Source of the DNA: Pseudalkalibacillus salsuginis
Lineage (GTDB): Bacteria; Bacillota; Bacilli; Bacillales; Fictibacillaceae
NCBI RefSeq assembly: GCF_021646685.1
Contig: NZ_JAKJHW010000007.1
Span: 62,001-126,000 of the forward strand
DNA length: 64,000 bases
Direction: 5' to 3'
The position numbers and the translations under genes are program-made. Shown here piece by piece: positions 28,276-45,247 of this stretch. Position 1 is the first letter of the stretch. Each line of letters starts with the position of its first letter. Below the pieces are notes generated by a model. The model was not told the origin of the DNA. It made no database searches and worked only from the letters and a program-made list of their open reading frames with translations.

Positions 28276-29736
28276 TTACGGTTTAATGAATACTGTTTTG
28301 ATAGATGTGAAGAACTCTTTTGCAGCTTGTCCTTGTTCACGGGAGTGAGAGCTCGACTGCTTCATCCCGCCGAATGGTGCTTGCAGTTCGACCCCAGCTG
28401 TTTCGGCATTGACACGGACAAGCCCCGCCTCGATTTCATCAACAAAGGTAAGGATATTACTGATATTTTCTGTGTAGATCGAAGCACTCAAACCAAACTT
28501 GACGTCGTTCGCCAGTTCAAACGCCTCTTCTAATGTATCTGCCTTGATCAAAGCAAGGACTGGACCAAAAATCTCCTCCTGTCCGATGACCATTTTTGAA
28601 TCAACATTATCGAATATGGTCGGTTCTACAAAATATCCATTCTCCAATCCATCTGGCCGTTTTCCGCCGAAAATCAGTTTTGCGCCTTCTTCTTTTCCTT
28701 TTTGAATGTATGAGAGGACGGTGTTCAGTTGAGACTCGCTCACACTAGGGCCCATCCATGTCCCTTCTGCACTTCCATCTCCCACTTTCAATTTTCCAAC
28801 TTCTTTCAGCAATTTTTCTTTGAATTCATCGTATATTTCGGATTGAACGATCACTCTGCTAGTAGCTGTACATTTCTGCCCCGTAGAACGTAAGCCGCCA
28901 CTGATCGTCCCTTCCACAGCAAGGTCCAGGTTGGCATCTTTTGCAACAATGACAGGATTCTTTCCGCCCATTTCCAGCTGGAATTTCGCTCCTCTTTCCA
29001 CAGCACCTTCTGCCACACGCTTTCCGGTCTCATTTGATCCTGTGAACGTCAGCCCTTTCACATCTGGATGATCGATGATCCGCTGCCCTACAACAGATCC
29101 CTTACCATTTACAACATTGACCACTCCTTTTGGAAAACCGGCTTCATGGAAGCATTCCATCACTTTTGTCGTAGTGACAGCCGTCTCCTGTGCAGGTTTG
29201 AGGACAACCGTATTCCCATAGATTAAGGCAGGAGCTGTTTTCCATATAGGAATTGCTGCTGGAAAGTTCCAAGGAGTAATGATCCCTACAACTCCAAGTG
29301 GAACACGTGTAGTGTACATCAAAGCATCGGGATCTGTAGAAGGGATGACATCCCCTACGCTTTTCATCCCTTCTCCTGCATAATAGCGGAGAATAGCCAC
29401 TCCTCTAGCGGTCTCGCCTTTGGCTTCAGGGAAAGTCTTACCCATTTCCTTTGTCATCGTTTCAGCGATTTCATCGATTCTGCTTTCAAGAATGTTCGCT
29501 GCTCGATACAAGTAATCACCGCGTTGGGCGCCAGTCAGCTTTTTCCACCCCTTGCTGGACCGTTTGGCAGCCTCGACTGCCTGATTGACATCCGCCTCAG
29601 ATGAGAGCTGGTATGTTCCGACTACCTCTGCCGTGTTTGCCGGATTGTAGCTCTTCTCCGTCTTGTTCGTCTTAGCACTCACCCATTCACCATCGATATA
29701 GTTCAGATAATCCTTAACGATTGTTTCTGTCGCCAT
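28276..29736 (-). CDS. Alpha-ketoglutaric semialdehyde dehydrogenase-type aldehyde dehydrogenase
   Basis: 486 residues, NAD(P)+-dependent ALDH superfamily. Asn157 is in [11 protein letters not shown], Glu255 in LEMGGKNP and nucleophile Cys289 in [11 protein letters not shown], counted from this start. The closest characterised group by appearance is the ketoglutarate-semialdehyde / YcbD type found with sugar-acid dehydratases. With the fumarylacetoacetase-fold protein at 31305 it would form the Weimberg exit: 2-keto-3-deoxypentonate to ketoglutarate semialdehyde to 2-ketoglutarate. I place the start at the second ATG, with AAAGGATG about 7 bases before it; the first ATG is too close to the site. 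Confidence 0.88.
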
Positions 29737-29825
29737 TTCAACCATCCTTTCTATTCATTGAAACATTGACTCTGTTAAAGTTCCTTGCTGATATATGCAC
29801 CTTTACGATTTAGTAATGCCAATCA

Positions 29826-30995
29826 TTAAAATGTAGGTCCGATTCTCCAAATACCGAAATCATGCTGCTTCAATATTTCCGATTTGGTCTTCTTTCCAGC
29901 ACATGTCTGTGTGATTTCCTCCATGATACGCTGTCCAACTTCATCGACTGTTTCTTTTCCCTCTATGATCGTGCCGGCATTCAGATCAACATTCTCAGCC
30001 ATACGTTCGTACATCATCGTATTTGTCGATATCTTGATGACTGGTGCAATCGGAGAGCCGGTAGGTGTCCCACGTCCGCTTGTAAACAGGACGATCTGCG
30101 CTCCGCCTGCCACCATCCCCGTCAATTGTTCGATGTCATGACCAGGAGTATCCATCCAGACAAGCCCTTTTTTCGTTGGCTGTTCTGCATAATTGACTAA
30201 CTCTTGCAAGGCACGGGTTCCTGCCTTGGTTGCGGCACCGAGCGATTTTTCCTCCAATGTCGATAAACCGCCTTTCACATTCCCAGGACTTGGGTTTCCT
30301 GTCCGGATATCCACACCCATCCGAATTGCTCTGTTCTCCATCGCCTGGATCACTTCATAAACACGTTTTGATACCTGATCATTTACTGCCCTCTCAGCAA
30401 GCAGATGTTCCGCCCCGATCAATTCTGTCGTTTCCGCAAGGATCGCCGTACCACCGCGATCGACAATTTTATCACTTACAGCTCCGACTGCCGGATTGGC
30501 TGATAACCCTGAACATGCATCAGATCCCCCGCATTCAGTCCCTATGATCAACTCACTGAAATCAAACGTGACTTTCGGTTCCATGGATGCTTCCTGTACC
30601 ATTTTAACTGCGGCTTTTGCACCTTCGGCTATCGCTGTAAGTGTCCCGCCGTGATCCTGGATCGATATGACTTCGACTGGTTTTCCGCTTTCCCGGATAT
30701 CATCAGCCACGCTTCTTGCTTGGTGTGTTTCACATCCTAAACCTAAGACGACTACACCATAGACATTCGGATTTTTACCCATTCCAGCGTAAGTACGGAA
30801 GGTTTGTTCATAATCCACCCCGACCTGGGCACAGCCATGCTGATGGATGAATGTGACGGTCCCATCCACTAGTTCGGTAATCCGTTGCGCAGCCTGTGTC
30901 GCGCAAGTGATCGTGGGTAAAATAAGGACGTGATTACGTATTCCTATACGGCCATCTGGGCGTCTATAGCCCATGAGTTGCTTGTTTTCGGCCAA
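29826..30995 (-). CDS. UxaA-type sugar-acid dehydratase, large (catalytic) subunit
   Basis: About 389 residues of the UxaA/GarD C-terminal family. Typical stretches: GYRRPDGRIGIRNHVLILPT, GCAQVGVDYEQTFRT, VVLGLGCETHQA and LIIGTECGGSDACSGLSANPAVG, plus GHDIEQLTGMVAGGAQIVLFTSGRGTPTGSPIAPVIK. The family carries out dehydration of altronate or galactarate, and a relative (SuyB) releases sulfite from sulfolactate, so the substrate is open. The small SAF subunit is encoded separately just upstream and overlaps. I prefer the TTG at 30995, six bases after AGGTG; a GTG at 31004 is the alternative. Confidence 0.85.
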   Translation of the reverse strand: MAENKQLMGYRRPDGRIGIRNHVLILPTITCATQAAQRITELVDGTVTFIHQHGCAQVGVDYEQTFRTYAGMGKNPNVYGVVVLGLGCETHQARSVADDIRESGKPVEVISIQDHGGTLTAIAEGAKAAVKMVQEASMEPKVTFDFSELIIGTECGGSDACSGLSANPAVGAVSDKIVDRGGTAILAETTELIGAEHLLAERAVNDQVSKRVYEVIQAMENRAIRMGVDIRTGNPSPGNVKGGLSTLEEKSLGAATKAGTRALQELVNYAEQPTKKGLVWMDTPGHDIEQLTGMVAGGAQIVLFTSGRGTPTGSPIAPVIKISTNTMMYERMAENVDLNAGTIIEGKETVDEVGQRIMEEITQTCAGKKTKSEILKQHDFGIWRIGPTF

Positions 30996-31281
30996 ACTTA
31001 TCACCTCTTCCTCTCTTTCCTTCTACGTTATGGATATGGACATGTTCACCGATATCGATGTCATTGGAGGCAACACCGATTACTTCACCATATTTCTTGA
31101 CATCTTGACCTTGCTGAATTCTTTTAACAGCGAATTTATGCCCGAATTCGATGTCATCCTTCAATTCGATCGAGACAATTTCTCCATGGAGCCCTAAGGC
31201 GACAATCGATTCTTTCTTCAAAGGCACCAGCGCTACTGCTACGTTATCAATCGGTTTCATAATTAATGCTTGCCCGTTCAT
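30964..31281 (-). CDS. UxaA-type dehydratase, small SAF-domain subunit
   Basis: 105 residues making one SAF domain (about 8-85), the N-terminal part of altronate/galactarate dehydratases. Here it is a separate protein, as in the SuyAB and split UxaA systems. The conserved VAVALVPLKKES and FGHKFAVKRIQQGQDVKKYGEVIGVASNDIDIGEHVHIHNVE are present; the last histidines are probable metal ligands. GGGGAGG lies 9 bases before the ATG. Its 3' end overlaps the start of the large subunit, so the two are translated as a complex. Confidence 0.85.
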   Translation of the reverse strand: MNGQALIMKPIDNVAVALVPLKKESIVALGLHGEIVSIELKDDIEFGHKFAVKRIQQGQDVKKYGEVIGVASNDIDIGEHVHIHNVEGKRGRGDKFGRKQATHGL

Positions 31282-31304: not shown

Positions 31305-32207
31305 TTAAGAGACTATGGTTTGACTTTCGACCTGGCTTTTGACAGGATTTCTCAACAAGCCGATGCCGGGAATTTCAATTTCGACCCGATCCCCATCATT
31401 CAAGGTGAATTCATTTGGCGGGACGATACATGTACCTGTCAACAGTACTGTCCCAGGGAACACGACATTGTCTTTCATAAGATAATCGGTCAATTCTTTT
31501 AATTTGCGTTTCAGTTGACTAACCTTTGCTGAATCCTCAAAAACCAGGTTTTCATTACGATAGATCCGACAGTTGATTTCGAATTCATACGGATCTTTCA
31601 CTGTCTCGGCCAAACGGATCGAAGGGCCGATCGCGCAGGAATTCTTCCAAATTTTCGCCTGTGGTAAATACAATGGATTCTCTCCTTCAATATCCCTGCA
31701 GCTCATGTCATTTCCGACGGTATATGCCAGAATGGATCCATCAGAATCAAGGACTAAGCCCAGCTCCGGTTCCGGGATCTGCCAATCAGAATCGCTGCGC
31801 AAATAGACCGGTTCATCCGTCCCAATCGTCCTATCCACAGTTGATTTGAAGAAAATCTCCGGTCGATCGGCATCATAAACCTTATCGTAAAACGTATCTG
31901 CATCCAGCTTTCCACCTGTAGCCTCATAATTTCTCGCTTCCTTGGAACGCATATACGTAACGCCGGATGCCCAAACTTCCTTTGCTTCAATCGGGACCAA
32001 CAGGCTAAGTTCCGTTACATTGCGGTTCAGAGGTTCCCCTTTAGATAGAATGGGATGGATAAGCTCAAGGGGACTTTTTTGTCGTTTCTTCGATTCCTCG
32101 ACAAGTTCCAAAAAACAGCGATATGGCAATCTGTAAACCTTATCTTCATCTGTTATAGCACCTAAAGTCGGTGTATTTTGATCATTTATAAAGCGGATGA
32201 TTCTCAT
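31305..32207 (-). CDS. Fumarylacetoacetase-fold protein, likely 2-keto-3-deoxy-pentonate dehydratase
   Basis: A 300-residue FAH-superfamily enzyme. The metal ligands of the fold appear in IPEPELGLV and YTVGNDMSCRDIEGEN; PLYLPQAKIWKNSCAIGPSI and FPGTVLLTGTCIVPP are family motifs. Relatives hydrolyse diketo acids or, in the archaeal and bacterial Weimberg routes, dehydrate 2-keto-3-deoxy-arabinonate/xylonate to ketoglutarate semialdehyde. The aldehyde dehydrogenase three genes on supports the second reading. It is the first gene of the 24-32 kb operon. GGAGGG precedes the ATG, and a 17-base operator-like site lies at 32223-32239. Confidence 0.8.
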   Translation of the reverse strand: MRIIRFINDQNTPTLGAITDEDKVYRLPYRCFLELVEESKKRQKSPLELIHPILSKGEPLNRNVTELSLLVPIEAKEVWASGVTYMRSKEARNYEATGGKLDADTFYDKVYDADRPEIFFKSTVDRTIGTDEPVYLRSDSDWQIPEPELGLVLDSDGSILAYTVGNDMSCRDIEGENPLYLPQAKIWKNSCAIGPSIRLAETVKDPYEFEINCRIYRNENLVFEDSAKVSQLKRKLKELTDYLMKDNVVFPGTVLLTGTCIVPPNEFTLNDGDRVEIEIPGIGLLRNPVKSQVESQTIVS

Positions 32208-32286: not shown

Positions 32287-33051
32287 CTAAATGAATACCT
32301 GCTGGCAGCCCATTTTTCTAGATACCTCTTCGCCAACCTGTTTCAATCGGCTTACCACATTTTCCAATTCGACCTTTGCCCGGGGAGCAGGCATAGATAG
32401 ACTGATTGCAGCTACGACTTCCCGATTATAATCCCATACAGGAACAGCGACACAAAACACGCCTGGTTCATTTTCTTCGTTGTCGATCGCATAGCCCCTC
32501 TCCTTCACTTGAAGAAGCTCTTCCCTGAAATCTTCCTCATTGGTGATCGTATTCGGTGTTTGCTTAATATATTGATAATCCTTCAATAGTCCATTAATCT
32601 CGAATTCCTTCTTAAAAGCGACCAACGCTTTACCCACTCCGCTGGAATGAAGGGGAATACGTTTGCCGATTCGGGAGTACACGATCGTTGCTGATGTACC
32701 AGCAACCTTGTCGATATAAACCCCCTCCTGGCCGCTCAAAACAACTAAATGAAGGGTATGTCCGGTTTCGGCAGAAAGGTCCTGTAGATATTTCTTGGCG
32801 ATCGTCCTGATATCGAGACTGTTGATCACCAGATTTCCTCTTTCGAACAGTTTCAAGCCAAGTTTGTATTTCCCCGTTTCCAGATCTTGTTCAATGTAAT
32901 GATTGACTTGAAGCGTTTTCAATAATGAATGGACTGTACTCTTATTCAAGTTCAATTGGCTGCTGATTTCTGTGATCTTCAACTCTGTTGTCTGCTCATC
33001 AAATAGATTGAGGATTTTCAGAGCCCTCTCGACAGATTGGATAATTGGCAT
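32287..33051 (-). CDS. IclR-family transcriptional regulator (KdgR-like)
   Basis: About 254 residues. The N-terminal winged helix (LKITEISSQLNLNKSTVHSLLKTLQ) is at about 25-50, followed by the C-terminal IclR effector domain, which has VYSRIGKRIPLHSSGVGKALVA and the cysteine-containing GVFCVAVPVWDYNREVVAAISLSMP. It binds small carboxylates such as 2-keto-3-deoxygluconate in relatives and controls sugar-acid genes. It is the last gene of the larA/TRAP unit and lies just upstream of the FAH-led operon. Matching palindromic sites before both operons make it the best local regulator. The third in-frame ATG (33051) has AAAGGA at 9 bases and is preferred. Confidence 0.88.
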   Translation of the reverse strand: MPIIQSVERALKILNLFDEQTTELKITEISSQLNLNKSTVHSLLKTLQVNHYIEQDLETGKYKLGLKLFERGNLVINSLDIRTIAKKYLQDLSAETGHTLHLVVLSGQEGVYIDKVAGTSATIVYSRIGKRIPLHSSGVGKALVAFKKEFEINGLLKDYQYIKQTPNTITNEEDFREELLQVKERGYAIDNEENEPGVFCVAVPVWDYNREVVAAISLSMPAPRAKVELENVVSRLKQVGEEVSRKMGCQQVFI

Positions 33052-33107
33052 TCGTTTCATTCCTTTATACAAGTTATATAGTTCTATCATACCACGTTCA
33101 ATGCCAA

Positions 33108-34058
33108 TTAAAGCACTGCTTTATCCATTTCCCTCGGAATAGCCAATCCTTCTGTCGTTCCCTTTTTCGATGCAACCAGTTCAGGATTGTACCGCGCAAT
33201 CAGGGCCAACCCCAATTTCGCTCTCCGTACACGTTCTTTTGATAACTTGATAGAGGTCTCTTCAAGGTGGGTCCCTGACGGATAGATATTAGGCGCATTC
33301 CTTAAACCGAATTTGATATAAACAGGGGCAGCCACCCTTATAATCTCAGGGATTTCATAATGTCTGATGAAGCCCCCGATATCATCTGGTACTTCCACAT
33401 AAATATCCAGCGGAAGATCGACTGCTTGGCGGATCGCTGCCAAACGAGCCAGTGTAAGATCGGTCGGAACATTATAAGTCCCTGCACCGTGGCTCTCCAT
33501 CAAACGGATCGACACGGGATTCGAATGGGCCATCTGGACGGAAATTTTGACCAGTAAATCCTCAGGTAATTCACCTTTTTTCTTAAACTCGTTGACCAGC
33601 CATAACAACCCTTCATCTGCTACAAGGATACTTCGGATTCCAGCCTTACAGGCACGTTTGATATCTTCGATGGAATACACCAGCTGATCCATCCCCTCAA
33701 CACGGAGCCCCGTGACCTGTCCTCCACTTGCCCGTTGCATAGCTGTGATGTCCCATGAGCCCCTTGGGCCGACGAATAGACTGACTTCAAGCTTTTCTTC
33801 CCTGCCGATCTCAGCCATTTCCTCGAGTTCATCATCTGTCAATAACATGATCCCGCTTCCTTGTGAAATCCTATGGACTTCCACATCATATTCCTCGCAT
33901 GCTTTCATTACTGCTTTAAAAGATCGTGGTCCTTCGACACTTGGAATTTCCACCCGATATTGGGCTCCATCCGGAAACCGTTTGGTGGAAGTAGGAAGAT
34001 GATTACAATCTGTACTTGGAAATCCTAATTCCTCTATGATTCGCCTTGTTTCCTTCAC
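33108..34058 (-). CDS. Predicted TIM-barrel protein, U32-peptidase-like annotation group, function unknown
   Basis: A 316-residue cytosolic protein. Alternating strands and helices such as KAVMKACEEYDVEVHRIS, KACKAG-type helices and RSILVADEGLLWLVNEF, plus a late PVYIKFGLRNAPNIYP, suggest a barrel. No catalytic motif is recognised. My recollection is that similar proteins are called U32 family peptidases, but the U32 signature pattern is not visible here. It is packed between the IclR gene and the YjhG/YagF-type dehydratase and conserved in direction. An isomerase or aldolase role in sugar-acid breakdown is a guess from context only. Confidence 0.6.
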   Translation of the reverse strand: MKETRRIIEELGFPSTDCNHLPTSTKRFPDGAQYRVEIPSVEGPRSFKAVMKACEEYDVEVHRISQGSGIMLLTDDELEEMAEIGREEKLEVSLFVGPRGSWDITAMQRASGGQVTGLRVEGMDQLVYSIEDIKRACKAGIRSILVADEGLLWLVNEFKKKGELPEDLLVKISVQMAHSNPVSIRLMESHGAGTYNVPTDLTLARLAAIRQAVDLPLDIYVEVPDDIGGFIRHYEIPEIIRVAAPVYIKFGLRNAPNIYPSGTHLEETSIKLSKERVRRAKLGLALIARYNPELVASKKGTTEGLAIPREMDKAVL

Positions 34059-34062
34059 AATG

Positions 34063-36261
34063 TCACAACCTCTCTTCTACTCTTTTTGGCAGCTTCACAT
34101 CTGCTTGATAATCCAATTCTGCCTCTTGCCATATTGGAATAGGTACGACACCATGAGCAGCATCTGTATACCCGTGGATGCGATTGCTTGACGCTACAAA
34201 ACGTTGCCTCTTCCGCATCTTCATAAGTCTTTCCTCAGCTAAAGGTTCACGTTTCTCCGTGATGCTGTCGAATTCCTGGATCATTTGCCCTGTTTGGAAC
34301 GCCTGCTGATCGAGGAAATGAATTTCATTCTCCCGGAGGCCGAGATATAACAGATCGCCGGTTTGCAAATAGAGGATGCCTCCCCGATCGATCGCTTCCG
34401 GTGTCATATGACCGATGGCAGCTCCAAATGTCGCGCCTGAGTAACGTCCATCGCTGATGACAGTCACGAGCCGCTTTAGTTTGCGGCTTGCGTTGATATG
34501 CTGCATAGGCGTAAACATTTCCGGCATTCCGAAAGCAATCGGTCCTTGGCCAGAAATGACAACCGCAATTTTCAAAATTTGATGCTCAACCATCGCATCA
34601 AACAGAGCTTCGTATTCAGTGTCTTTCATTTCATCAAAAAAGTCAGGGCTGTTGTGCTTGACCATTTGTTGAAGACTCTCATGGGAAAAGGTCCGTTCCT
34701 GTTTCAGTTTGTCGACCAGGCCGGAGTCCAACAGGTGGTTGTTCGCTTCTTCCTCATTCTCGAAATAAAGGACAAAAGCCACCTTCTTATCAAAACCATC
34801 TAATTGCGGCGTTGCCATCCCGCTGATCTTGACAACTGCTGATTCAAAGAAATTCCCTTTCAAGACGTCTACACCACTGAAACGTCTTCGAGGCTTAGAA
34901 ACGATGACCGGGTTTTCCGATACTGTCGCAGCAGGAAGCCCTTTCTTGTTCTCCAACCGCTCCCGCCAGGTTGTCCCCGTTACTGTAGGGGCATCAACAT
35001 CCATCGGAACGCCATTTTCCAAGAGTTCATAGAATAAGGTTTCCATCCCTCTGCTATCTCCAGCACAGCACTGTATCGCAAGCGAGAAGATATCCCGATC
35101 CTCTGTGAGGCTATAATTGAACAGGTCTGGGATCGGGTGCTCATGATGGATTTCATCCAAATCTGCCAGACTGAATTTATAGCCGCCATATAACATTCCT
35201 GCAACCATGTGCATCATGAGATTTGTCGATCCGCCCGAAGCGCTATGTATCCTGATGGCATTCTTGATATTTGCTGCCATGATATTCGCGGCTCCGTAAA
35301 CAGGATCATTGATCATCCCTTGCAAGTCATCCAATGATTCATTTACTTGTTCCTTTGTCGGCGGAGCGGTGAGGAGCTCTAATGTTGGATGGACAAGCCC
35401 CATGCCTGCAACAAGGTGTCTGGAACTGTTCCCAGTCCCATTGAAGGCACATACCCCGCCTTGCCCGTCACAAGTGGCTACTGCCAGCCGTTTTTCATAA
35501 TCCTTTTGTCGTTCATGGGTGATGATCCCTCTTTCAACGGCTCGGCTCAATACTCCTTGAAACGCTGTGTTCGATGTACACTGGAGAATATAGGCCATTG
35601 CGTCCCTGATGTCGTTTGCAATATCGGCTTCCCCGTCCAATTCTGCCTGATCGGCCAAATCCGTCAGTTCCTGGTAGAGATCTTCTGGAATCGTTCCTCC
35701 TTGTAATACATGGGCCGGAGCGAATGTCGCAAAAAATGGGGCTTCACCTCTGAACTGGCGGATCCGATCCATCTGGGCCACTGCACTGACCACACCAAGT
35801 GGTTGTTTATCGCACCCCTGGATGACGAAAGCACCATGATAGCTATGTGCTTCCAATTGATTAACGACCATCTGTGCGACGGCATTACGACTTTGGAGAG
35901 AATAGCTCATCCCCTGATTGCTTTGAGCGGTACCGTCACACATGACGGGTGTGGAGAAATAGAATGGGACTCCTCCATTCTCCCAGATACGCAAGGCCGC
36001 GAAAGAAGAAGTTTGATAGTCCATAATGTGGGCCGGGTGATCCGGTGATCCCCCAATAATGGCGATCCTTGGCGCGTTTTCTTCAAGGCGGTTATAGATT
36101 TCTTCCAAGCTCCAATCCACTTCTCCATTATAGTTGGATCCAGCAATCTGTTTTGCACGGTCCAATATTCCGGCAACAGTGATCGGTTCATTGGCTTTGC
36201 CTTGGACATTGTCCCGGTAAGGATTTACGCTATTTTCAATAAAAGGGTATTGGGAAGCCAT
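34063..36261 (-). CDS. Sugar-acid dehydratase of the IlvD/Edd superfamily (YjhG/YagF type)
   Basis: About 732 residues, in the long YjhG/YagF subgroup (E. coli members about 655) and not the 550-620 residue IlvD/Edd forms. Cluster and metal motifs: PVMCDGTAQSNQGMSYSL, VIQGCDKQPLG and CDGQGGVCAFNGTGNSSRH, with the late SDGRYSGATFGAAIGHMTPEA. E. coli YjhG/YagF dehydrate D-xylonate, and relatives act on other aldonates. The product would feed the DapA-family aldolase or the FAH-fold dehydratase. GAGGAGGGGACTT sets the ATG at 36261. It carries a longer C-terminal tail than the family average, which I cannot explain. Confidence 0.87.
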   Translation of the reverse strand: MASQYPFIENSVNPYRDNVQGKANEPITVAGILDRAKQIAGSNYNGEVDWSLEEIYNRLEENAPRIAIIGGSPDHPAHIMDYQTSSFAALRIWENGGVPFYFSTPVMCDGTAQSNQGMSYSLQSRNAVAQMVVNQLEAHSYHGAFVIQGCDKQPLGVVSAVAQMDRIRQFRGEAPFFATFAPAHVLQGGTIPEDLYQELTDLADQAELDGEADIANDIRDAMAYILQCTSNTAFQGVLSRAVERGIITHERQKDYEKRLAVATCDGQGGVCAFNGTGNSSRHLVAGMGLVHPTLELLTAPPTKEQVNESLDDLQGMINDPVYGAANIMAANIKNAIRIHSASGGSTNLMMHMVAGMLYGGYKFSLADLDEIHHEHPIPDLFNYSLTEDRDIFSLAIQCCAGDSRGMETLFYELLENGVPMDVDAPTVTGTTWRERLENKKGLPAATVSENPVIVSKPRRRFSGVDVLKGNFFESAVVKISGMATPQLDGFDKKVAFVLYFENEEEANNHLLDSGLVDKLKQERTFSHESLQQMVKHNSPDFFDEMKDTEYEALFDAMVEHQILKIAVVISGQGPIAFGMPEMFTPMQHINASRKLKRLVTVISDGRYSGATFGAAIGHMTPEAIDRGGILYLQTGDLLYLGLRENEIHFLDQQAFQTGQMIQEFDSITEKREPLAEERLMKMRKRQRFVASSNRIHGYTDAAHGVVPIPIWQEAELDYQADVKLPKRVEERL

Positions 36262-36302
36262 AAGTCCCCTCCTCATGTTTGTTTATTCGTTTATTCATAA
36301 CG

Positions 36303-37550
36303 TCAAAGTTCCATAGATACAGGGTCTGAAAGTATCTTCAATTGATCATTCTGTTCCGCTTCTTCTATCAGGCTTTCTGAAATCCAGATTTCCTTCAGGT
36401 CTAGCGTGTTTTGAATCCGTACAAGCCTGACTTTGGATAGATCGAAGGCATTGCACGTCTTGATTCCCGCTTTGATTGCAAGCTCCTCTGTTTCCAGGAA
36501 CATCGGAAACTTGACGGTTTCCACTACTGTACTTGTCAGGGCGTTCGTATACCCTTTTTCCATAATTGTCTGTTCAAATGCTTTTTTCGTGGTGATATCA
36601 GCGAGCCCGATCCCATTGGCATTCCCGCCAGTCTTCTCAGTCAACCGTAAGACGACAACACGTTTCGCATTTGCACCTCCGGTTGCATAAGGAGTGGCAA
36701 ACCGCCCGCTGATGTTCGGGTCCATTCCATCGCCTGAAATATCTTTACCTAGCTCTTCAACGACCAGGACGTCGATCGGATCGATCAGTATCTTCGGCAT
36801 CAGACGTTTTGCTTCCAATAATAAACCAGGTTCTCTATCAATCAATGATTCTGCCGGTATCACTTCGATTTGAGCAGGGCGGTCATAAGCATTTTCAATC
36901 GTACCCAAGCCGAAAATGATCGGTGTTTTCTTCAGCGCCACTTTGGCCATTTCCGGCACATGTTCGCCCATGTACTTGAATCCGAAAGAATGGGCTGCTT
37001 CTGCTCCTTTTTGTTTCCCTAGGCCAATCGTGATCATTTTCAATAGTCCGCTTTCCACTTCTCCACGGAAAGCAGTATGTGGTTTGATCCGATTGATCAC
37101 GATAACTTTATCAGCTTGGTAAGCCGATCGATCCGTATAGATGGGGAGGCCATTCGGCAGTTGTCCGATCTGTTCGACTTCCATACTCGAATGAATCGGG
37201 GCACCGACCCATTCTTCCGTAACACCCAGGTCCTCCAGCACTCTCTTCTGTCCTTCGGGAGTAGCCCCGCCATGGCTTCCCATGGCAGGAACAATGAAAG
37301 GATCTCCTCCTGATGCCCGTACTGCCCGGACCATTTCCCTCGTAAGAATCGGGATATCAGCTACTCCTCTGCTGCCGACTGCAATCGCTACCCGGTCTCT
37401 TGCTTCAATCCTTTCCAGGACGCCCGATTGATGCAATCTTTTATGGACTTCCCGCACAACATCTTCAATTTCCGGAGCATCGAACGTTTGTCTTACCTTG
37501 ACCATCCGAGGAATTGGTACAGGTTGAAGGAGTTCATCGATTACTTTCAC
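36303..37550 (-). CDS. LarA homologue, nickel-pincer-dependent 2-hydroxyacid racemase/epimerase
   Basis: A 415-residue LarA/DUF2088 protein (Lactobacillus LarA is about 424). The residues that hold the nickel-pincer nucleotide in LarA have clear counterparts: Lys171 in ESGLLKM (LarA Lys184) and His187 in GAEAAH (LarA His200) keep the 16-residue spacing. His158 in RIKPHTAFRG and His93 in GSHGGATPEG match the two catalytic histidines. Lactate racemase itself is unlikely: the gene sits inside a sugar-acid/TRAP operon, and LarA homologues are known to racemise or epimerise other 2-hydroxy acids, including aldonates. A C2 epimerase of galactonate or xylonate is my best guess. The start is GTG with GGGAGG ahead. 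Confidence 0.85.
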   Translation of the reverse strand: MKVIDELLQPVPIPRMVKVRQTFDAPEIEDVVREVHKRLHQSGVLERIEARDRVAIAVGSRGVADIPILTREMVRAVRASGGDPFIVPAMGSHGGATPEGQKRVLEDLGVTEEWVGAPIHSSMEVEQIGQLPNGLPIYTDRSAYQADKVIVINRIKPHTAFRGEVESGLLKMITIGLGKQKGAEAAHSFGFKYMGEHVPEMAKVALKKTPIIFGLGTIENAYDRPAQIEVIPAESLIDREPGLLLEAKRLMPKILIDPIDVLVVEELGKDISGDGMDPNISGRFATPYATGGANAKRVVVLRLTEKTGGNANGIGLADITTKKAFEQTIMEKGYTNALTSTVVETVKFPMFLETEELAIKAGIKTCNAFDLSKVRLVRIQNTLDLKEIWISESLIEEAEQNDQLKILSDPVSMEL

Positions 37551-37568: not shown

Positions 37569-38603
37569 TTATTGACGTAATTCTTCTAATTGTTCGGTCA
37601 TTTGATTGAATAGGTCTTCCCCGAATTGTTTAGCGAATTTATCTATGACCGGTTGGATCTGTTCCTGAACCTTTTCCTTTTCTTCATTGCTGAATTCGTT
37701 CACGTTCATTCCCTGGTCTTTCAAATTTTGGAGTGATTCTTCATTCGCTTTACGGTTGATTTCCCTGTTATATTTGCCTGCTTCAACTGCTGCATCTTTC
37801 ATGATCTTCTTCTCTTCATCTGATAATTTATCCCAGAAAGTTTTACTCATCAAAAATACGAATGGGGTATAAACATGATTGGTTACAGATAAATAATCTT
37901 GTACTTCATAGAACTTATTCGATTCGATGGTGGCAAGCGGGTTTTCCTGTCCATCAACCGTTTTGCTTTCTAAAGCGGTGAACACTTCTGAAAACGCCAT
38001 CGGTGTAGGGTTGGCACCCATTTTTTGAAAGGCTTCCAAATGGACCTCATTTTGCATCGTCCGTATTTTTAAACCTTTAAAATCCTCTGCAGTTTCAATT
38101 GGATGTTTACTATTCGTGATATTCCTGAATCCATTCTCCCAATAAGTCAATCCCACCAGATTATGTTCAGGGAGTTTTTCCAAGACAGCTTGTCCAACTT
38201 CCCCATCCAGTACAGCATCTGCCTCTTCTTCAGAGTTGAACAAGAATGGAAAATCGAAGAGTCCGAATTCTTTTACCATACCGACTAGCGGTGAGGTTGA
38301 AGGAATGGTCACTTCTTGCGTACCAGATTTCAATGCTTCTGTCATCTGCAAGTCATCCCCTAATTGTGAGGCAAAGTAGGTTTGAACTTTGATTTTGCCA
38401 TCGGTCTTTTCCTCAACGATTTCCTTGAATTTCATCAAGGCTTGCCCCTCAGGATGATCTTCGTTCAACCCGATCCCTGCCTTAATCGTCCGTTCCTGGA
38501 TACCACTTTCACCTCCAGAAACGGATTGCCCCGCACTACAAGCCCCAAGTATCAAAAGACTGGCACTTAATAAACCTACCATCGTTCTTTTCCAATTTTT
38601 CAT
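37569..38603 (-). CDS. dctP: TRAP transporter substrate-binding lipoprotein DctP (first)
   Basis: About 344 residues. A lipoprotein signal (LLSASLLILGACSAG, lipobox LGAC) leads to a DctP-family periplasmic-type binding domain. It has the conserved arginine/Asn binding stretch GLKIRTMQNEVHLEAFQKMGANPTPMAFSEVFTALESKTVDGQENPLATI. The residue pattern GLKIR...N fits binding of a carboxylate. It lies downstream of the hydroxyacid dehydrogenase and upstream of the larA homologue. A second DctP with its DctQM partners lies at 39.7-42.6 kb, so this one may share them. AAGGGGGGAAGGACA sets the ATG at 38603. Confidence 0.88.
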   Translation of the reverse strand: MKNWKRTMVGLLSASLLILGACSAGQSVSGGESGIQERTIKAGIGLNEDHPEGQALMKFKEIVEEKTDGKIKVQTYFASQLGDDLQMTEALKSGTQEVTIPSTSPLVGMVKEFGLFDFPFLFNSEEEADAVLDGEVGQAVLEKLPEHNLVGLTYWENGFRNITNSKHPIETAEDFKGLKIRTMQNEVHLEAFQKMGANPTPMAFSEVFTALESKTVDGQENPLATIESNKFYEVQDYLSVTNHVYTPFVFLMSKTFWDKLSDEEKKIMKDAAVEAGKYNREINRKANEESLQNLKDQGMNVNEFSNEEKEKVQEQIQPVIDKFAKQFGEDLFNQMTEQLEELRQ

Positions 38604-38616
38604 TGTCCTTCCCCCC

Positions 38617-39651
38617 TTAAAATGAATTGACATTTGTCATATATTGCTCGCTCCATTCCGCTTCCTCAAGCTGAAGGAGATCTTTCATACTCTTATTGAC
38701 CAGGTATTTCGGATACCGATTATGCAGCAAAACATCCTTAACACCAAGCACAGCCTTTTGCCTCATCTCCTTTTCCGCCTCTTCTGAATACCAGGCAACG
38801 TGCGGAGTAAAAATCACATTTTCCATCGCCAACAAAGGGTGATTCCGTGGAATAGGCTCTTGTTCAACCACATCGAGTGCAGCCCCAGCAATACGCTTAT
38901 CTTCAAGCGCTTTGATTAAAGCGCTTTCATCGATGACCGGGCCTCTTGACGTATTGATGATAAAGGCATGCTCTTTCATTGACCGGAATTGCTTTTCCCC
39001 GATCATCCCTTTTGTAGTGTCCGTCAAAGGTACATGTACTGAGACGATATCAGACAGACTGCATAATTCATCCAGGCTGATAAGGGTTACACCTTTTTCC
39101 CTACCCACCTCTTCGGGGCAATATGGATCAAAGGCTACAACAGAAAGACCGAATGGTTTCACCTTCTCTGCGAGCGCCTGCGGGATCTTTCCAAACCCTA
39201 TCAACCCCAGTGTCCTGCCTCTTAGACGATGAATGGGACGGGTGACTTTGAAATCCCACTTGCCGGATTTGACAGTTTGATCCGCCAGTATGATTTTCCG
39301 GGCCCAACTCAGTAACAAAGCAAAGGTATGGTCCGATACTTCATCTATACAATAATCAGGTACGTTTGCGATACATATCCTTCTTTCAGTAGCGGCAGCC
39401 ACATCAATGGTATTCACGCCGACCCCATAACGGGTGATGACCTTGCATTTTTCCAATCCTTCAAGGACACGTTTAGACATGGGAGCATACTGATTGATCA
39501 GAGCATCCGCATCTCTGCAGGCTTCAATCACTTCCTCTTCCGTCCGGCATTGTGCACCGACGAGCTCGAACCTTTCTTCTTCCAAAACGGAACGCTCATA
39601 TCCTAGGTCTTCAAATTCCCAATCTGTGACAACCACTTTCCATTTTTCCAC
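38617..39651 (-). CDS. D-isomer-specific 2-hydroxyacid dehydrogenase
   Basis: A 344-residue NAD-dependent dehydrogenase. The substrate-domain YGVGVNTIDVAAA, nucleotide fold TLGLIGFGKIPQALAEKV, and catalytic Arg (NTSRGPVIDE), Glu (VVEQEP) and His (FTPHVAWYS) are in the family order. The GxGxxP variant G-F-G-K-I-P replaces GxGxxG, seen in some phosphoglycerate/glyoxylate reductase relatives. It could interconvert a 2-keto and a 2-hydroxy acid, for example using glyoxylate or a sugar-acid fragment released by the aldolase. It lies between two TRAP genes, which suggests the transported compound or a breakdown product is its substrate. Confidence 0.87.
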   Translation of the reverse strand: MEKWKVVVTDWEFEDLGYERSVLEEERFELVGAQCRTEEEVIEACRDADALINQYAPMSKRVLEGLEKCKVITRYGVGVNTIDVAAATERRICIANVPDYCIDEVSDHTFALLLSWARKIILADQTVKSGKWDFKVTRPIHRLRGRTLGLIGFGKIPQALAEKVKPFGLSVVAFDPYCPEEVGREKGVTLISLDELCSLSDIVSVHVPLTDTTKGMIGEKQFRSMKEHAFIINTSRGPVIDESALIKALEDKRIAGAALDVVEQEPIPRNHPLLAMENVIFTPHVAWYSEEAEKEMRQKAVLGVKDVLLHNRYPKYLVNKSMKDLLQLEEAEWSEQYMTNVNSF

Positions 39652-39688: not shown

Positions 39689-40966
39689 CTACATTAACCA
39701 CTCAAGCGGCACCGTCACGAGTGAAGGGAAGAGAATCAGTAAAAACAGGACGATGACATGGACGAGTAAGAATGGCCATATCCCCCTTGCCAGCTCAACA
39801 ATCGATATCTTACTAATTCCACATCCTACATAAAGGACTGTTCCTACCGGCGGTGTAATCAAGCCGATACATAGATTGATGACCATCACGATGCCGAAAT
39901 AGACAGGATCGATGCCAGCTAGCTTGATGACTGGAATCAACACTGGGGTGAAAATCAGAATGGCCGGTGTCAAATCCATGACAAGTCCGATGGCTAAAAC
40001 CAGTATTGTAATGACAATCATCAGTAGCATCGGCTTGTCGATAAGCGGCCCTAACATCGTTGCCATATCTGCCGGGACCTGTGCCACCGTGATTAACCAG
40101 GCAGACACCATTGCCGCTGCCGCCACAAACATGACCACACTTGTTGTTTTAGCTGATGTAACAAGGACTTCATAAAGATGTTCGATTTTCAACTCCCGAT
40201 AGACGAAGAACCCGACGAAAATAGCATAAAAGACTGCTACCACCGAAGCTTCAGTAGGCGTGAAAATCCCTCCACGGATTCCACCGATGATGATGATTGG
40301 GAGCATAAGTGCCCAGCTTGTCTGTTTTGTCAAATACCAGACTTCTTTCAGTGATTTACGGGGGGGTAATTCAGTCTTGTCCCTCCTTGATACCAACGTC
40401 CATACGATGACAAGGCCAAGAGCCATCATGATACCAGGTGCAATTCCACCCATGAATAGCCGTGTAATCGAAACACCACTTACAACACCAAAGATGATCA
40501 TCGGAATACTTGGCGGAATAACTGGGGCGATGATTCCTGCAGAAGCGATCAACCCCGTCGATCTTGCTTTGTCATAACCCTTTGAAAGCATCATCGGGAT
40601 CAGAATCGCCCCAAGAGCTGCTGTATCCGCAACGGCTGATCCGGATAGTCCAGCGAACAACACACTCGCAAGAATTGCTACATACCCTAACCCGCCGCGG
40701 ATATGTCCAACCAATGACATGGCGAATGATACAACCCTTTTTGAAATACCACCTGCATTCATCAACTCACCGGCTAAGATGAAAAATGGAATAGCCATCA
40801 ATGCGAAGTTATTGGCTCCATTGATCAAATTTTGAGCAATAATCTGACTATCGAACATTCCTAACAAAATCATCAGGGCTATCCCGCTGAGAAGCAGTGA
40901 AAAAGCGATAGGTACACCAAGAGCTAGTGCGCCGAATAACGAACCGAGGAAAACACCAAGTGCCAT
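39689..40966 (-). CDS. dctM: TRAP transporter large permease DctM
   Basis: A 425-residue TRAP large subunit with about 12 hydrophobic spans. Family motifs: FFILAGELMNAGGISKRVVSFA, GLSGSAVADTAALGAILIPMM, IIAPVIPPSIPMIIFG and FTPTEASVVAVFYAIF. It forms the ion-coupled channel with DctQ and takes substrate from the DctP lipoproteins. It is in an operon with dctQ (15-bp gap) and dctP. Confidence 0.93.
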   Translation of the reverse strand: MALGVFLGSLFGALALGVPIAFSLLLSGIALMILLGMFDSQIIAQNLINGANNFALMAIPFFILAGELMNAGGISKRVVSFAMSLVGHIRGGLGYVAILASVLFAGLSGSAVADTAALGAILIPMMLSKGYDKARSTGLIASAGIIAPVIPPSIPMIIFGVVSGVSITRLFMGGIAPGIMMALGLVIVWTLVSRRDKTELPPRKSLKEVWYLTKQTSWALMLPIIIIGGIRGGIFTPTEASVVAVFYAIFVGFFVYRELKIEHLYEVLVTSAKTTSVVMFVAAAAMVSAWLITVAQVPADMATMLGPLIDKPMLLMIVITILVLAIGLVMDLTPAILIFTPVLIPVIKLAGIDPVYFGIVMVINLCIGLITPPVGTVLYVGCGISKISIVELARGIWPFLLVHVIVLFLLILFPSLVTVPLEWLM

Positions 40967-40981: not shown

Positions 40982-41527
40982 CTAAATGTTCTGAACTTTG
41001 ACTGATGGTTCTTCTGGAACATCATTTTTATGATCAGGAACCATTGATAGATTGCCAGACTTGCTAGAACGTTTGAAGGCGACCAATAGATTCCGTATAA
41101 CAATCAATGCCATGCTTACACTCGTGATGACTCCGACTCCATAGACGAATCCGAGCGGGAGTTTAGTCGCCGGAGCGAGACTTCCCATGTTAAGCAACGT
41201 CATTCGCAGACTGCCATTGAACAACAGCCATAATACATAGAGTACAAGTAAGTTGCTGAGGACAAAAACGACTTTCTTCAACGGTTTAGGCAATAGATTT
41301 GTAACCAGATCCATCCCGAGATGCATGTTATCTTTAAAAGCAGCAATCGCCCCAAGGAAAACGAGCCATACGAAGAGAAAACGCGACATCTCTTCCGACC
41401 AGGTGATCCCTGAATTGAATGCGTATCTTAAGACAACGTTCCCAAAAACGAGAATAGCCATGAACGTCAAAGCCAATGCAATCAGGATATTCAATGTTTG
41501 ATTTATGATCTTAATCAGCATTTGCAC
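40982..41527 (-). CDS. dctQ: TRAP transporter small permease DctQ
   Basis: About 181 residues with four hydrophobic spans. The motifs FNSGITWSEEMSRFLFVWLVFLGAIAAFKDNMHLGMDLV are diagnostic for DctQ. It couples the periplasmic binding protein to DctM. The GTG at 41527 is preferred because AAAGGGG sits 8 bases before it; an upstream GTG at 41536 is also possible. The C-terminal tail is unusually long and charged. Confidence 0.88.
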   Translation of the reverse strand: MQMLIKIINQTLNILIALALTFMAILVFGNVVLRYAFNSGITWSEEMSRFLFVWLVFLGAIAAFKDNMHLGMDLVTNLLPKPLKKVVFVLSNLLVLYVLWLLFNGSLRMTLLNMGSLAPATKLPLGFVYGVGVITSVSMALIVIRNLLVAFKRSSKSGNLSMVPDHKNDVPEEPSVKVQNI

Positions 41528-41542
41528 GTGAATCACCCCTTT

Positions 41543-42565
41543 TTAGTTTGCTTGTTCTTTGATACGTTCCACGATGTCCTCCGCCCAAGGGAATTTTTCA
41601 TAATAGCTTTCATATAAAGGCTCCGTCGCCTCTTCCATTTCTTTTTGGAATTCTTTACTTGGTGTGATAAATTCAATCCCTTTGTCTTCAAGAAACTTCT
41701 TGTCTTCTTCATAGCTTTTCTGCATCAATTCAAATTCATAGTCCGCTGATTTTTGAGCCGCTTCCTGGACTACCTTTTGTTGGTCCTCACTTAACCCTTC
41801 CCAAACTTTGCTGTTGATGATGTATAAGTTCGGACTGAACATGTGGCGGGATTCAAGGACATAATCCTGGACTTCATACCAACCAGATGCCCGGAGCGTA
41901 GCAATCGGGTTATCCTGGCCGTCGACAACATTCTGTTCCAAAGCGGTGAAAACTTCTGAAATCGGCATTGGACTGACCGTAGCGCCAAGTGCTTTCCCAA
42001 GATCGATGTAATGTTCGATGTTTGGCATCCTGAGTCTCAAATCCTTAAAATCCTCTACCGATGCTAATTCCTTGTTACTTGAGAACATCCTGAACCCGTT
42101 TGCACTCCATGCAAGTGGATGTACGCCATGCTTTTCTTCTAGGTCTTCCAACAATTCATCGCCGATCGGACCATTTAATACGTTCTTCGCATGTTCATAG
42201 TCTTTGAACAAAAACGGCCATTCCGTGACCCCGAGCTTTTCGATCGATGACTGCATGATCATTCCTGGGATGCCCATCTCAATCGTACCGTTACGGACTC
42301 CATCGTAAAATTCCTGCTCAGCACCCAACTGGCTGTTGTCATAGATTTCAACCTTCAAGGTACCTTCGGACCCTTCCTCTACCAATGGCTTGAATTTTTC
42401 TCTCAAGGCAACGTTTTGCGGATGTTCAGAAGCAAAATAGTTCGCTACCTTCAGGGTTTGGGTATTGTCTCCACCCGCTTCCCCCAGTCCAGTTGCATTA
42501 CAACCTGCGAGTAACAGCGAGGCAGACAGCAAGACCAAACAAAGAAACACCCAGCATTTTTTCAT
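41543..42565 (-). CDS. dctP: TRAP transporter substrate-binding lipoprotein DctP (second)
   Basis: About 340 residues. The lipoprotein signal LVLLSASLLLAGCNATG (lipobox LAGC) is followed by the DctP domain with DLRLRMPNIEHYIDLGKALGATVSPMPISEVFTALEQNVVDGQDNPIATL. It is related to the DctP at 37569 but clearly not a recent copy. As the first gene of the operon it probably provides the main binding protein for the DctQM pair that follows. GGAGGAGG precedes the ATG. Palindromes, a cre-like site and a long AT-rich leader lie upstream. Confidence 0.9.
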   Translation of the reverse strand: MKKCWVFLCLVLLSASLLLAGCNATGLGEAGGDNTQTLKVANYFASEHPQNVALREKFKPLVEEGSEGTLKVEIYDNSQLGAEQEFYDGVRNGTIEMGIPGMIMQSSIEKLGVTEWPFLFKDYEHAKNVLNGPIGDELLEDLEEKHGVHPLAWSANGFRMFSSNKELASVEDFKDLRLRMPNIEHYIDLGKALGATVSPMPISEVFTALEQNVVDGQDNPIATLRASGWYEVQDYVLESRHMFSPNLYIINSKVWEGLSEDQQKVVQEAAQKSADYEFELMQKSYEEDKKFLEDKGIEFITPSKEFQKEMEEATEPLYESYYEKFPWAEDIVERIKEQAN

Positions 42566-42587
42566 ACAACTTGCCTCCTCCATATTT

Positions 42588-42848: not shown

Positions 42849-44099
42849 TTACTGATAATGATACGCCGTTTTCAAAAGAGACTGTGCTTTCTCTTTTACG
42901 GTAAAATAGACTTCCTCAAAAGGAATCCCGTATTGCATGGCCGCTTTTCGGATATCCTCATATTCGGGGGAAACCTGATAAATTTTATGATTCTTATAAC
43001 CTACTTTTACTGAAATATTCCCAAAACTGGTCTCCACTACTTCTATACGACGTTCCAAGGCAATTCGGTTCCATAAAGTTTTTCTTATCCCGAACGTTGA
43101 CGTTTCATGTAATAAGATTTCTTCCAAACTATCAGAATGGCTTGGACTAGCTAAAACTGTCACCAATGTACCCGGACGATTCTTCTTCATTTGGACAGGT
43201 GTATAATAGGCATCCAGTGCGCCTGATTCAAACAATTTTTCCATTACATAACCAAACGTCTCGCCAGTCATATCGTCGATTTGGCACTCGAGGACTTCAA
43301 TCGGTTCCCTATCCTGTTCAACCAATCGTTCTTCAAATAAAATGGCCCGTAAGACATTCGGATGGTCAAAGTTTTTCTTACCTGCTCCATATCCAATACG
43401 TTCCATTGTAATTGCAGGAATCTGTCCGAATTCTGATGCGAGGGCTTTCAAAAAACCTGCTCCTGTAGGTGTAGTCAGCTCTGCTTCAACATGGAAGTCA
43501 GCAAGAGGAATGCCTTTTAAGATTTCAGCGGTTGCAGGCGCAGGAATAGGATATAGCCCATGTGCCATTTGCACCTTCCCATATCCCGTTGGTACAGGAG
43601 AAGCGATTATTCTTTCAACATTGAGGTTTTCCAAACCAAGGCATACACCGATCACATCAATGATTGAATCCATCGACCCCACTTCATGGAAATGGACATC
43701 AGCCGGATCCATTCCGTGTATTTTTCCTTCCGCTAGAGCAATTACTTCAAATACTGCTTTACTTCGCTCCTTTACACGTACTGGCAGGTCACTATGTTCG
43801 ATCATTTCGAGGATGGTCGCCGCCTTCCGATGTTCATGATGGTGTGAATCATCCCTATGATGATGTTCATCGTGTTCATGGTGATGATGGCTACCTATCG
43901 AATTGAACAATTCCAGCACCAACTCCTTGGATGCGATTCCCTTCTTGTCGACCTGTTTCACGCCTAATTTGAAGGGATCAATCGGCAGTTTTTCCAGTTC
44001 CTCAGTAATATATTGGATATCAGCACCTAGATCAATCAGTGCGGTCAATGTCATGTCACCAGAGATCCCTGATTGACAATCAAGATATAGACATTTCAT
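42849..44099 (-). CDS. larC: Nickel-pincer cofactor biosynthesis protein LarC
   Basis: A 416-residue protein inserting Ni into the pincer nucleotide with CTP in the LarA cofactor route. Family stretches: CQSGISGDMTLTALIDLGAD at 9-28 and LTTPTGAGFLKALASEFG. A His-rich segment at about 70-92 (SHHHHEHDEHHHRDD) is a likely nickel-binding loop. Some lactobacilli make two frames by programmed frameshifting; here the frame is single and uninterrupted, so a full-length LarC is made directly. The ATG overlaps the end of larB by 20 bases. LarB, LarC and LarE, with the LarA homologue 5 kb away, are the full set for the cofactor. Confidence 0.92.
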   Translation of the reverse strand: MKCLYLDCQSGISGDMTLTALIDLGADIQYITEELEKLPIDPFKLGVKQVDKKGIASKELVLELFNSIGSHHHHEHDEHHHRDDSHHHEHRKAATILEMIEHSDLPVRVKERSKAVFEVIALAEGKIHGMDPADVHFHEVGSMDSIIDVIGVCLGLENLNVERIIASPVPTGYGKVQMAHGLYPIPAPATAEILKGIPLADFHVEAELTTPTGAGFLKALASEFGQIPAITMERIGYGAGKKNFDHPNVLRAILFEERLVEQDREPIEVLECQIDDMTGETFGYVMEKLFESGALDAYYTPVQMKKNRPGTLVTVLASPSHSDSLEEILLHETSTFGIRKTLWNRIALERRIEVVETSFGNISVKVGYKNHKIYQVSPEYEDIRKAAMQYGIPFEEVYFTVKEKAQSLLKTAYHYQ

Positions 44100-44775
44100 T
44101 GTCTACCCCCTCTGTCGCAAGCTGCAGAATTAGTGCCGCCTGGTAGGCAGCCCCGAAACCATTGTCGATATTGACCACACTCATACCAGACGCACAAGAA
44201 GTCAACATCCCCAATAATGGTGTCAAACCTTCCAAATGAGCGCCATAACCGACAGAAGTCGGAACCGCAATGACGGGACGACGCACCAATCCACCCACCA
44301 CACTTGGCAAGGCTCCCTCCATACCTGCAACCACGATAAGGACACTTGCTTTTGTAATCTCCTCCCGATAGGCAAGCAGGCGATCGATCCCTGCAACTCC
44401 TACATCATAAAGCCTTTTTACTTTACAGCCCATCCATTCTGCTGTCACCGCAGCTTCTTCCGCAACGGACAAGTCTGAAGTGCCCGCACATAGAACCATG
44501 ACTTCTCCCCTGTAAAATTGGGAGGAAACACCATGACGTAAGATCCGTGAAACCTCGTCATATTCAGCTGAAGGAAATTGGGGCAGCAATTCCTCCGCTT
44601 TCTCCTCTGATAATCTCGTCACCATCACCTTTCCATGATGCGCTATCAACCTCCCCATGATTTGAGAAATCTGCCCTCCCGTTTTCCCCTCACCGTAAAT
44701 GACCTCTGGGAAACCAGTACGCTTCTCTCGATCTATATCTACTTTACTGAATCCTAAATCTTCAAAATTATCCAT
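44080..44775 (-). CDS. larB: Nickel-pincer cofactor biosynthesis protein LarB (NaAD carboxylase/hydrolase)
   Basis: 231 residues of the PurE-like LarB family. The mark GFPEVIYGEGKT lies near residue 20; VLCAGTSDLSVAEEA, VIVVAGMEGALPSVVGGLV and the closing GFGAAYQAALIL complete it. It makes the first step from nicotinic acid adenine dinucleotide. The N-terminal helix that precedes DHHR in other LarB proteins is short, and DIDREKRTGFP replaces the DHHRxxRxGFP motif. The start ATG has AGGTGAT a few bases before it. Overlap with larC suggests coupled translation. Confidence 0.88.
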   Translation of the reverse strand: MDNFEDLGFSKVDIDREKRTGFPEVIYGEGKTGGQISQIMGRLIAHHGKVMVTRLSEEKAEELLPQFPSAEYDEVSRILRHGVSSQFYRGEVMVLCAGTSDLSVAEEAAVTAEWMGCKVKRLYDVGVAGIDRLLAYREEITKASVLIVVAGMEGALPSVVGGLVRRPVIAVPTSVGYGAHLEGLTPLLGMLTSCASGMSVVNIDNGFGAAYQAALILQLATEGVDNEMSIS

Positions 44776-45241: not shown

Positions 45242-45247
45242 CTTCCA

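Follow-up and report, generated by a model that had tools for sequence, protein, structure and literature searches.

The 64,000-nucleotide stretch of the Pseudalkalibacillus salsuginis genome analyzed here (the window; contig NZ_JAKJHW010000007.1) contains a gene for a LarA homologue with nickel-pincer residues, and this observation is confirmed. We propose, with a probability of roughly 0.7, that the protein is a C2-epimerase of aldonates, dependent on the nickel-pincer cofactor (NPN), that feeds an adjacent IlvD-type dehydratase. Computation gave us its family, five conserved residues, its gene neighborhood and its co-occurrence with other genes. The original prediction, which had read the gene as likely that of a nickel-dependent epimerase or racemase of an aldonate or another hydroxy acid, is supported, with activity and substrate predicted from sequence.

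Family and Fold of the LarA Homologue

The open reading frame at 36303-37550 on the minus strand, with the same limits as in the original prediction, has a GTG start and encodes 415 amino acids; Pfam, NCBIfam, hhalign and AlphaFold2 underlie its annotation as a LarA homologue of NPN group 22 and predicted aldonate C2-epimerase. The protein matched PF09861 (Lar_N) with 38.7 bits (cut-off 23.3) and the NCBIfam model NF052515 (nickel pincer cofactor-dependent isomerase, group 22) with 551.7 bits (cut-off 400) over profile positions 1-391 of 392, so that the family match is far above chance; DUF362 was likewise over its cut-off in Pfam (26.2 bits vs. 24). We found no difference from group 22, whose model names no substrate, and regard the protein as a further member of this named group of NPN enzymes, to which the function proposed below would apply. 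A lactate racemase identity is ruled out, both by the score with the lactate racemase model NF033504 (17.9 bits, below the cut-off of 460) and by the canonical homologues, none of which (0 of 20) matched the group-22 model at E ≤ 1e-30 in the same NCBIfam library; the protein thus falls outside the lactate racemase clade, as originally expected.

Sequence likeness to LarA is weak. The nearest PDB entry in a single-sequence search was the LarA of Isosphaera (E 1.9e-4). A 24-row group-22 profile did worse, with E 1.8 for its best family match in the PDB, a LarA-like protein of the single-histidine type. For the structure predicted by AlphaFold2 (mean pLDDT 93.4) there were 15 PDB matches at E ≤ 0.001, all of them LarA-family entries of the lactate, malate and single-histidine types.

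Predicted Cofactor-Binding and Catalytic Residues

Residues were paired by hhalign between an alignment of 57 group-22 proteins and one of 18 canonical LarA homologues, picked from 20 typed with NCBIfam, whose profile retrieves the structures of LarA, Mar2 and GntE2 in the PDB; the two aligned with a probability of 96.2 and an E-value of 2.4e-9. LarA residues R75, H108, H174, K184 and H200 pair with R61, H93, H158, K171 and H187 of the window protein, all five of which are invariant across the 93 aligned rows. Counterparts of the LarA NPN contacts R75, K184 and H200 are thus present as R61, K171 and H187, and those of the catalytic histidines H108 and H174 as H93 and H158. The original prediction had recognized two catalytic histidines and a spacing of 16 residues between Lys171 and His187, as between K184 and H200 of LarA, and both statements hold in the profile-profile alignment. 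Because of these conserved residues, we expect the enzyme to work in a LarA-like manner.

Other LarA residues have no such partner. D72, given as catalytic (PMC7583248) and an Asp in 18/18 canonical rows, faces a gap on the group-22 side of the alignment; there is no Asp or Glu at positions 56-60 in the 93 rows. K298 and Q295 of LarA bind the substrate carboxylate and Y294 the 2-OH (PMC11851776); none of the three could be located by profile alignment of the C-terminal part, because that alignment was not significant. K269 of the window protein, invariant in all 93 rows, is a candidate only. The loop after the second histidine is T159-A160 (T and A are found in 90 and 78 of the 93 rows, respectively), and E-V/S at this place is the signature of the gluconate 2-epimerase groups 18-20, or GntE (PMC7583248, PMC11770544). 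Membership in GntE by signature is ruled out, since the loop is mostly T-A instead of E-V/S; of the earlier suggestion that the protein might group with the gluconate epimerases or another non-lactate group, the latter part stands, in the form of group 22, and the former does not.

A Run of Sugar-Acid and Cofactor Genes

The LarA homologue is part of a gene run, all on the minus strand, that extends from larE (46072) down to a KDPG-type aldolase gene (24354). As originally described, it lies between a dehydratase and TRAP genes, with 26 bases to the IlvD/EDD gene (34063-36276) and 18 to a TRAP binding-protein gene (37569-38633), and the cofactor genes larC, larB and larE are indeed close by, at 42849-46072 on the same strand. 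LarC, the nickel-inserting enzyme for the NPN cofactor (42849-44099), matched TIGR00299 with 220.8 bits (cut-off 90) and NF052512 with 158.6 bits (cut-off 50); LarB (44080-44775) matched NF033503 with 296.5 bits (cut-off 175, at G000:C19:106122-106742), and the sulfur transferase LarE (45248-46072) matched TIGR00268 with 365.3 bits (cut-off 150). This LarBCE set has no other Lar_N client, since the LarA homologue is the sole Lar_N match at E ≤ 0.001 in its genome.

Also upstream of the LarA homologue are a D-isomer-specific 2-hydroxyacid dehydrogenase (38617-39651; PF02826, 211.3 bits) and a TRAP transporter with two binding proteins. The latter comprises the large permease DctM (39689-40966; PF06808, 434.8 bits), the small permease DctQ (40982-41536; PF04290, 102.9 bits), a solute-binding protein (37569-38633) whose closest solved relative is 7bbr (E 5.8e-102), which we take to be CxaP, and a second one (41543-42583) closest to 4pbq (E 1.1e-80). 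7BBR is given as bound to 2-keto-3-deoxy-D-gluconate (PMC11668362), and the ligands reported for CxaP are D-xylonate, D-fuconate, D-galactonate and D-gluconate (review PMC12076931). Elsewhere in the window, the translations alone point to a second TRAP-transporter-like gene set adjoining a nitrilase-like gene (57329-60140), and a 48-base tandem repeat (3.2 copies, 96% matches; 5380-5532) is open in several frames.

On the other side of the LarA homologue, the IlvD/EDD-type protein (34063-36276; Pfam ILVD_EDD_N 121.1 and ILV_EDD_C 90.1 bits) is a predicted aldonate/pentonate dehydratase of 737 aa, longer than its solved relatives (560-633 aa). A search of the family models for its substrate gave no NCBIfam model over cut-off and only partial PDB relatives; it looks like an undescribed subfamily. 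It is followed by a Peptidase_U32-like gene (33108-34058; PF01136, 28.2 bits, cut-off 22.4), which has no NCBIfam name and is kept alongside IlvD in 7/7 family loci fetched, and by a KdgR-like regulator of the IclR family (32287-33090; Pfam IclR_C and HTH_IclR; best NCBIfam match KdgR, 198.1 bits, below the cut-off of 275). Then come a FAH protein resembling the 2-keto-3-deoxypentonate dehydratase KdaD (31305-32207; PDB 2q18 at E 3.7e-66, next best 1.8e-20), the SAF-domain small subunit (30964-31281; PF08666, 32 bits, cut-off 21) and the large subunit (29826-31004; PF20629, 334.2 bits, and PF04295, 145.1 bits) of a UxaA/GarD-type dehydratase, an alpha-ketoglutaric semialdehyde dehydrogenase (KGSADH; 28276-29745; NF042993, 868.7 bits, cut-off 770) and a DHDPS-family aldolase/dehydratase (27132-28058; PF00701, 256.7 bits). 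The run ends with the D-galactonate dehydratase DgoD (25955-27103; NF010624, 693.9 bits, cut-off 311; PDB 3rr1 at E 9.8e-160), a KDG/KDGal kinase-like protein of the PfkB family (24975-25931; best NCBIfam NF040938, 226.3 bits, below the cut-off of 400) and a KDPG/KDPGal aldolase (24354-24965; TIGR01182, 172.2 bits, cut-off 156.05).

Conservation of the Neighborhood in Near Relatives

We assembled 100 loci, the best 80 from a scan of named genomes and 20 further regions, from which three duplicates (L033, L036, L038) and five loci with no full-length ORF (L034, L083, L088, L124, L127) were dropped, so that 92 sequences and the window protein made up the 93 rows. In a quick maximum-likelihood tree of these rows, rooted at the midpoint, the window protein falls in an 18-row clade (SH-aLRT 99) with its 17 nearest loci (L052-L068, 62-71% identity, among the best 80). 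When the window proteins were compared by tblastn with 10 kb on each side of these 17 loci, the 737-aa IlvD was found in 13 (69-74% identity), FAH in 13 (60-68%), DctM in 13, KGSADH in 10 (64-73%) and DgoD in 6 (at least 66%). The IlvD and KdaD-like dehydratases occur together in 13 of the 17 near relatives, ten of which have KGSADH too. A cluster-based count within 8 kb gave IlvD of any type in 14, FAH in 12 and KGSADH in 11; for such counts clade membership was taken by hand from the tree, neighbor clusters were single-linkage groups with one representative typed per cluster, and contigs ending near the gene were included.

The IlvD neighbor is absent from three of the 17 loci: L065 and L067 have none of IlvD, FAH, DctM, KGSADH and DgoD, and L066 keeps the TRAP genes and the regulator. 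The neighbors in L068 include a different IlvD-type gene, two genes that resemble the enolase family and one that resembles DHDPS. The IlvD-FAH-KGSADH set stands without DgoD within the DNA fetched in the Parageobacillus caldoxylosilyticus locus L056 and in L059 and L061, and DgoD is the next recognized gene after the LarA homologue in L186, L187, L188, L053, L058 and L075 (the same place as L036).

Within the window's own family, the distribution of the 737-aa IlvD (>70% identity) coincides exactly with that of the group-22 gene (8 of 34 genomes, the same for both), and the core genes common to the loci hold one order in all seven other family loci fetched; these eight carriers represent few independent events, because they are confined to two genera. 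One of them (G472) carries a group-22 protein 92% identical to that of the window and has three such paralogues in all, with a separate IlvD-family gene close to each; the IlvD-family genes of its two further paralogues score over the PRK06131 subfamily cut-off. One paralogue region of this genome (L190; G472:C3:261001-281000) also holds an aldehyde dehydrogenase, an IlvD-type dehydratase, MtnA (over cut-off) and a gene resembling uridine phosphorylase (273.5 bits, below the cut-off of 280.3); judged from the translations, two genes similar to MTA phosphorylase and one similar to larE are there too. The set is possibly a route for ribose units from nucleosides. It should be borne in mind that genomic context does not always predict activity, a caution given in PMC7583248.

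A Neighboring Clade With a Different Context

A separate neighboring clade of 47 rows (SH-aLRT 91) has other genes within 8 kb: an SDR cluster in 42 of 47 loci (the representative closest to D-mannonate oxidoreductase, 236.7 bits, below the cut-off of 281), an FGGY kinase in 34 (the representative closest to gluconokinase, 490.6 bits, below the cut-off of 648.55), and 6-phosphogluconate dehydrogenase and glucuronate isomerase, whose matches exceed the model cut-offs, in 19 and 10, respectively; larE and larB occur in 24 each. This context would suggest a C2 epimerization of D-mannonate to D-gluconate, in a route that may lead from glucuronate over fructuronate and mannonate to gluconate, the last step by the LarA homologue, and on to 6-phosphogluconate. 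The same mannonate-to-gluconate job is known for GntE2 of Thermotoga (PMC7583248). Fourteen positions are fixed (at least 85%) to different residues in the window clade and the neighboring clade. The remaining 28 rows have mixed sugar-acid neighbors (IlvD, DctP, DHDPS and hydroxyacid dehydrogenase in 8 each, a UxaC-type dehydratase in 7).

UxuA was over its cut-off in 26 of the 49 genomes searched, among them the window's own, in which mannonate therefore needs no epimerase. It was also found in 16 of the 28 genomes behind loci L069-L118, a count that does not sharpen the mannonate route suggested for the neighboring clade. With these counts, the idea that the LarA homologue replaces UxuA is not upheld as a rule.

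Cofactor Genes Across the Phylum

Of 398 sampled genomes of the phylum, 85 have a group-22 gene that scores over the NF052515 cut-off; LarC was matched in 62 of the 85 and absent from 23. The search for LarB and LarE in this set covered the 23 genomes that lack LarC and, among the 62 that have it, the window's own; neither was over cut-off in any of the 23 (0/23), and a strict tie of group 22 to LarBCE is thus not upheld over the phylum. The absence of LarC is not special to group 22, because 61 of 198 phylum genomes with canonical LarA homologues are without it too. Among the named group-22 genomes searched, LarB was over cut-off in 42 of 42 and LarE in 41 of 42. LarC was present in 18 of 31 genomes that have group 22 but no canonical homologue (taken as a best Lar_N match with E weaker than 1e-20), vs. 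68 of 169 with neither (Fisher p 0.077); the table behind these LarC counts was drawn up from manually transcribed genome lists.

Genomes with group 22 and no LarBCE include G021 and G190, each a single contig; G021 has 10 Lar_N matches, with many canonical homologues besides group 22. Such genomes may depend on cofactor salvage, on another route to the cofactor or on enzymes that do not need it; the portions of the literature consulted make no mention of LarA-homologue genomes without LarBCE. In Tumebacillus avium (L091; G425:C1:26463-27502) we observed LarB with an adjoining LarE that is only a C-terminal fragment over 97 model positions.

Proposed Function and Alternative Explanations

From the residues and the gene neighborhood we infer NPN dependence, the reaction and every substrate named here. 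By homology to LarA, K171 would tether NPN, with R61 and H187 holding it, and H93 and H158 would alternate in the roles of acid and base as a hydride passes from C2 to NPN and then returns on the other face. LarB, LarE and LarC of the same gene run would make the cofactor. The TRAP transporter would import sugar acids, and the epimerase would convert a C2 epimer unusable by the dehydratases into a usable one, which the adjacent IlvD-type enzyme would dehydrate to a 2-keto-3-deoxy acid; where the acid has five carbons, the KdaD-like FAH protein and then the semialdehyde dehydrogenase could take it on to 2-oxoglutarate. Judged by the neighboring genes, the substrate should be an aldonate, with the adjacent dehydratase accepting its other C2 epimer. 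Our best guesses for the window clade are D-lyxonate/D-xylonate or D-ribonate/D-arabinonate, because the genes that the clade conserves belong to a route from five-carbon acids to 2-oxoglutarate; D-talonate/D-galactonate follow closely, because the LarA homologue adjoins DgoD in L186-L188, L053, L058 and L075.

That last pair could be the whole story: an NPN-dependent C2-epimerase of D-galactonate/D-talonate might serve DgoD, the KDGal kinase and the KDPGal aldolase, with the pentonate genes as a separate branch of the same regulon. This is possible, if on the improbable side. DgoD is the next recognized gene after the LarA homologue in the six loci just named, the DgoD of the window is over its cut-off, and the TRAP protein is nearest to 7bbr, presumably CxaP. 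D-galactonate is among the ligands of CxaP (PMC12076931). DgoD, however, is found in only 6 of the 17 clade loci, whereas the 737-aa IlvD and FAH are in 13, and in three loci (L056, L059, L061) the IlvD-FAH-KGSADH set is present while DgoD is missing from the DNA fetched. We consider it unlikely that the enzyme is a D-mannonate/D-gluconate 2-epimerase, as the context of the neighboring clade suggests for its members, with the IlvD protein as a gluconate dehydratase feeding the KDG kinase and the KDPG aldolase. Genes for a KDG kinase-like protein and a KDPG aldolase are present in the window, but the genes conserved in the window clade are the five-carbon ones (FAH, KGSADH) and not gluconokinase or Gnd, UxuA is already in the genome, and the two clades differ at the 14 fixed positions.

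The chemistry itself might also be different. Because D72 of LarA, and perhaps K298, is replaced, the protein might bind NPN and catalyze another hydride-transfer reaction such as a redox isomerization; the lack of an acidic residue at positions 56-60 in all 93 rows and the C-terminal motif that could not be aligned fit this idea, which is nonetheless rather improbable given that both catalytic histidines and the three NPN-contact residues are invariant in those same rows. That the protein is a distant DUF2088/DUF362-like one with no use for NPN is very unlikely. DUF362 is over its cut-off, and 23 of the 85 group-22 phylum genomes are without LarC, none of them with LarB or LarE over cut-off; however, 61 of the 198 genomes with canonical homologues lack LarC too, LarB is found in every one of the 42 named group-22 genomes searched, larE and larB are each within 8 kb in 24 of 47 neighboring-clade loci, and the LarBCE set of the window has no other Lar_N client. 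An NPN-dependent epimerase of aldonates coupled to the IlvD-type dehydratase is the reading we prefer.

Significance and Comparison With Known Systems

At even odds, in our judgment, group 22 may form another branch, separate from GntE, of nickel-pincer enzymes that epimerize aldonates at C2, in which the window clade would be a dedicated pentonate (or galactonate/talonate) 2-epimerase that opens the IlvD-to-2-oxoglutarate pathway to wrong C2 epimers. We found neither a dedicated pentonate 2-epimerase nor work on sugar acids with group 22 in the literature searched. In PMC6336799, an enolase-type L-fuconate dehydratase is described as epimerizing D-arabinonate to D-ribonate, but only as a side activity. 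Table 1 of PMC7583248 numbers 13 homologues by group, none of them group 22, and the nine proteins of PMC11770544, which uses another numbering, have lactate, hydrophobic-acid, malate, gluconate and hydroxyglutarate activities assigned to them. If the proposal is true, a widespread group without an assigned function (85 of 398 phylum genomes) would gain a reaction, the nickel-pincer cofactor would have a wider part in sugar-acid catabolism, and a one-step C2 epimerase for rare sugar acids would be at hand; the conserved IlvD partner offers a simple coupled assay.

With the lactate racemase LarA of L. plantarum the window protein shares the fold and the counterparts of R75, H108, H174, K184 and H200; unlike LarA, it has no D72, a K298 that could not be located, a loop of T-A instead of F-F and a score of 17.9 bits with the LarA model. 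GntE1 and GntE2, the D-gluconate 2-epimerases of LarAH groups 19 and 20 as classified in PMC7583248, belong to the same superfamily and catalyze the same kind of reaction on a sugar acid that is predicted here, and the glucuronate-to-gluconate context of the neighboring group-22 clade matches theirs; the canonical profile retrieves GntE2 (4nar) at E 2.7e-21, and the group-22 profile misses it at E ≤ 10. The five-carbon branch of the window is of a known kind, because PMC6336799 describes COG2721 dehydratases, FAH-type dehydratases and a route to 2-oxoglutarate. In the Route II pentonate pathway of Herbaspirillum huttiense (PMC6336799), a D-arabinonate dehydratase of COG2721 (UxaA/GarD) and an FAH-type 2-keto-3-deoxypentonate dehydratase lead onward to 2-oxoglutarate, and these families are also in the window. 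No LarA homologue is mentioned for Route II in the sections consulted of that paper, and to such a route the window would add an epimerase and an IlvD-type dehydratase of an unnamed subfamily.
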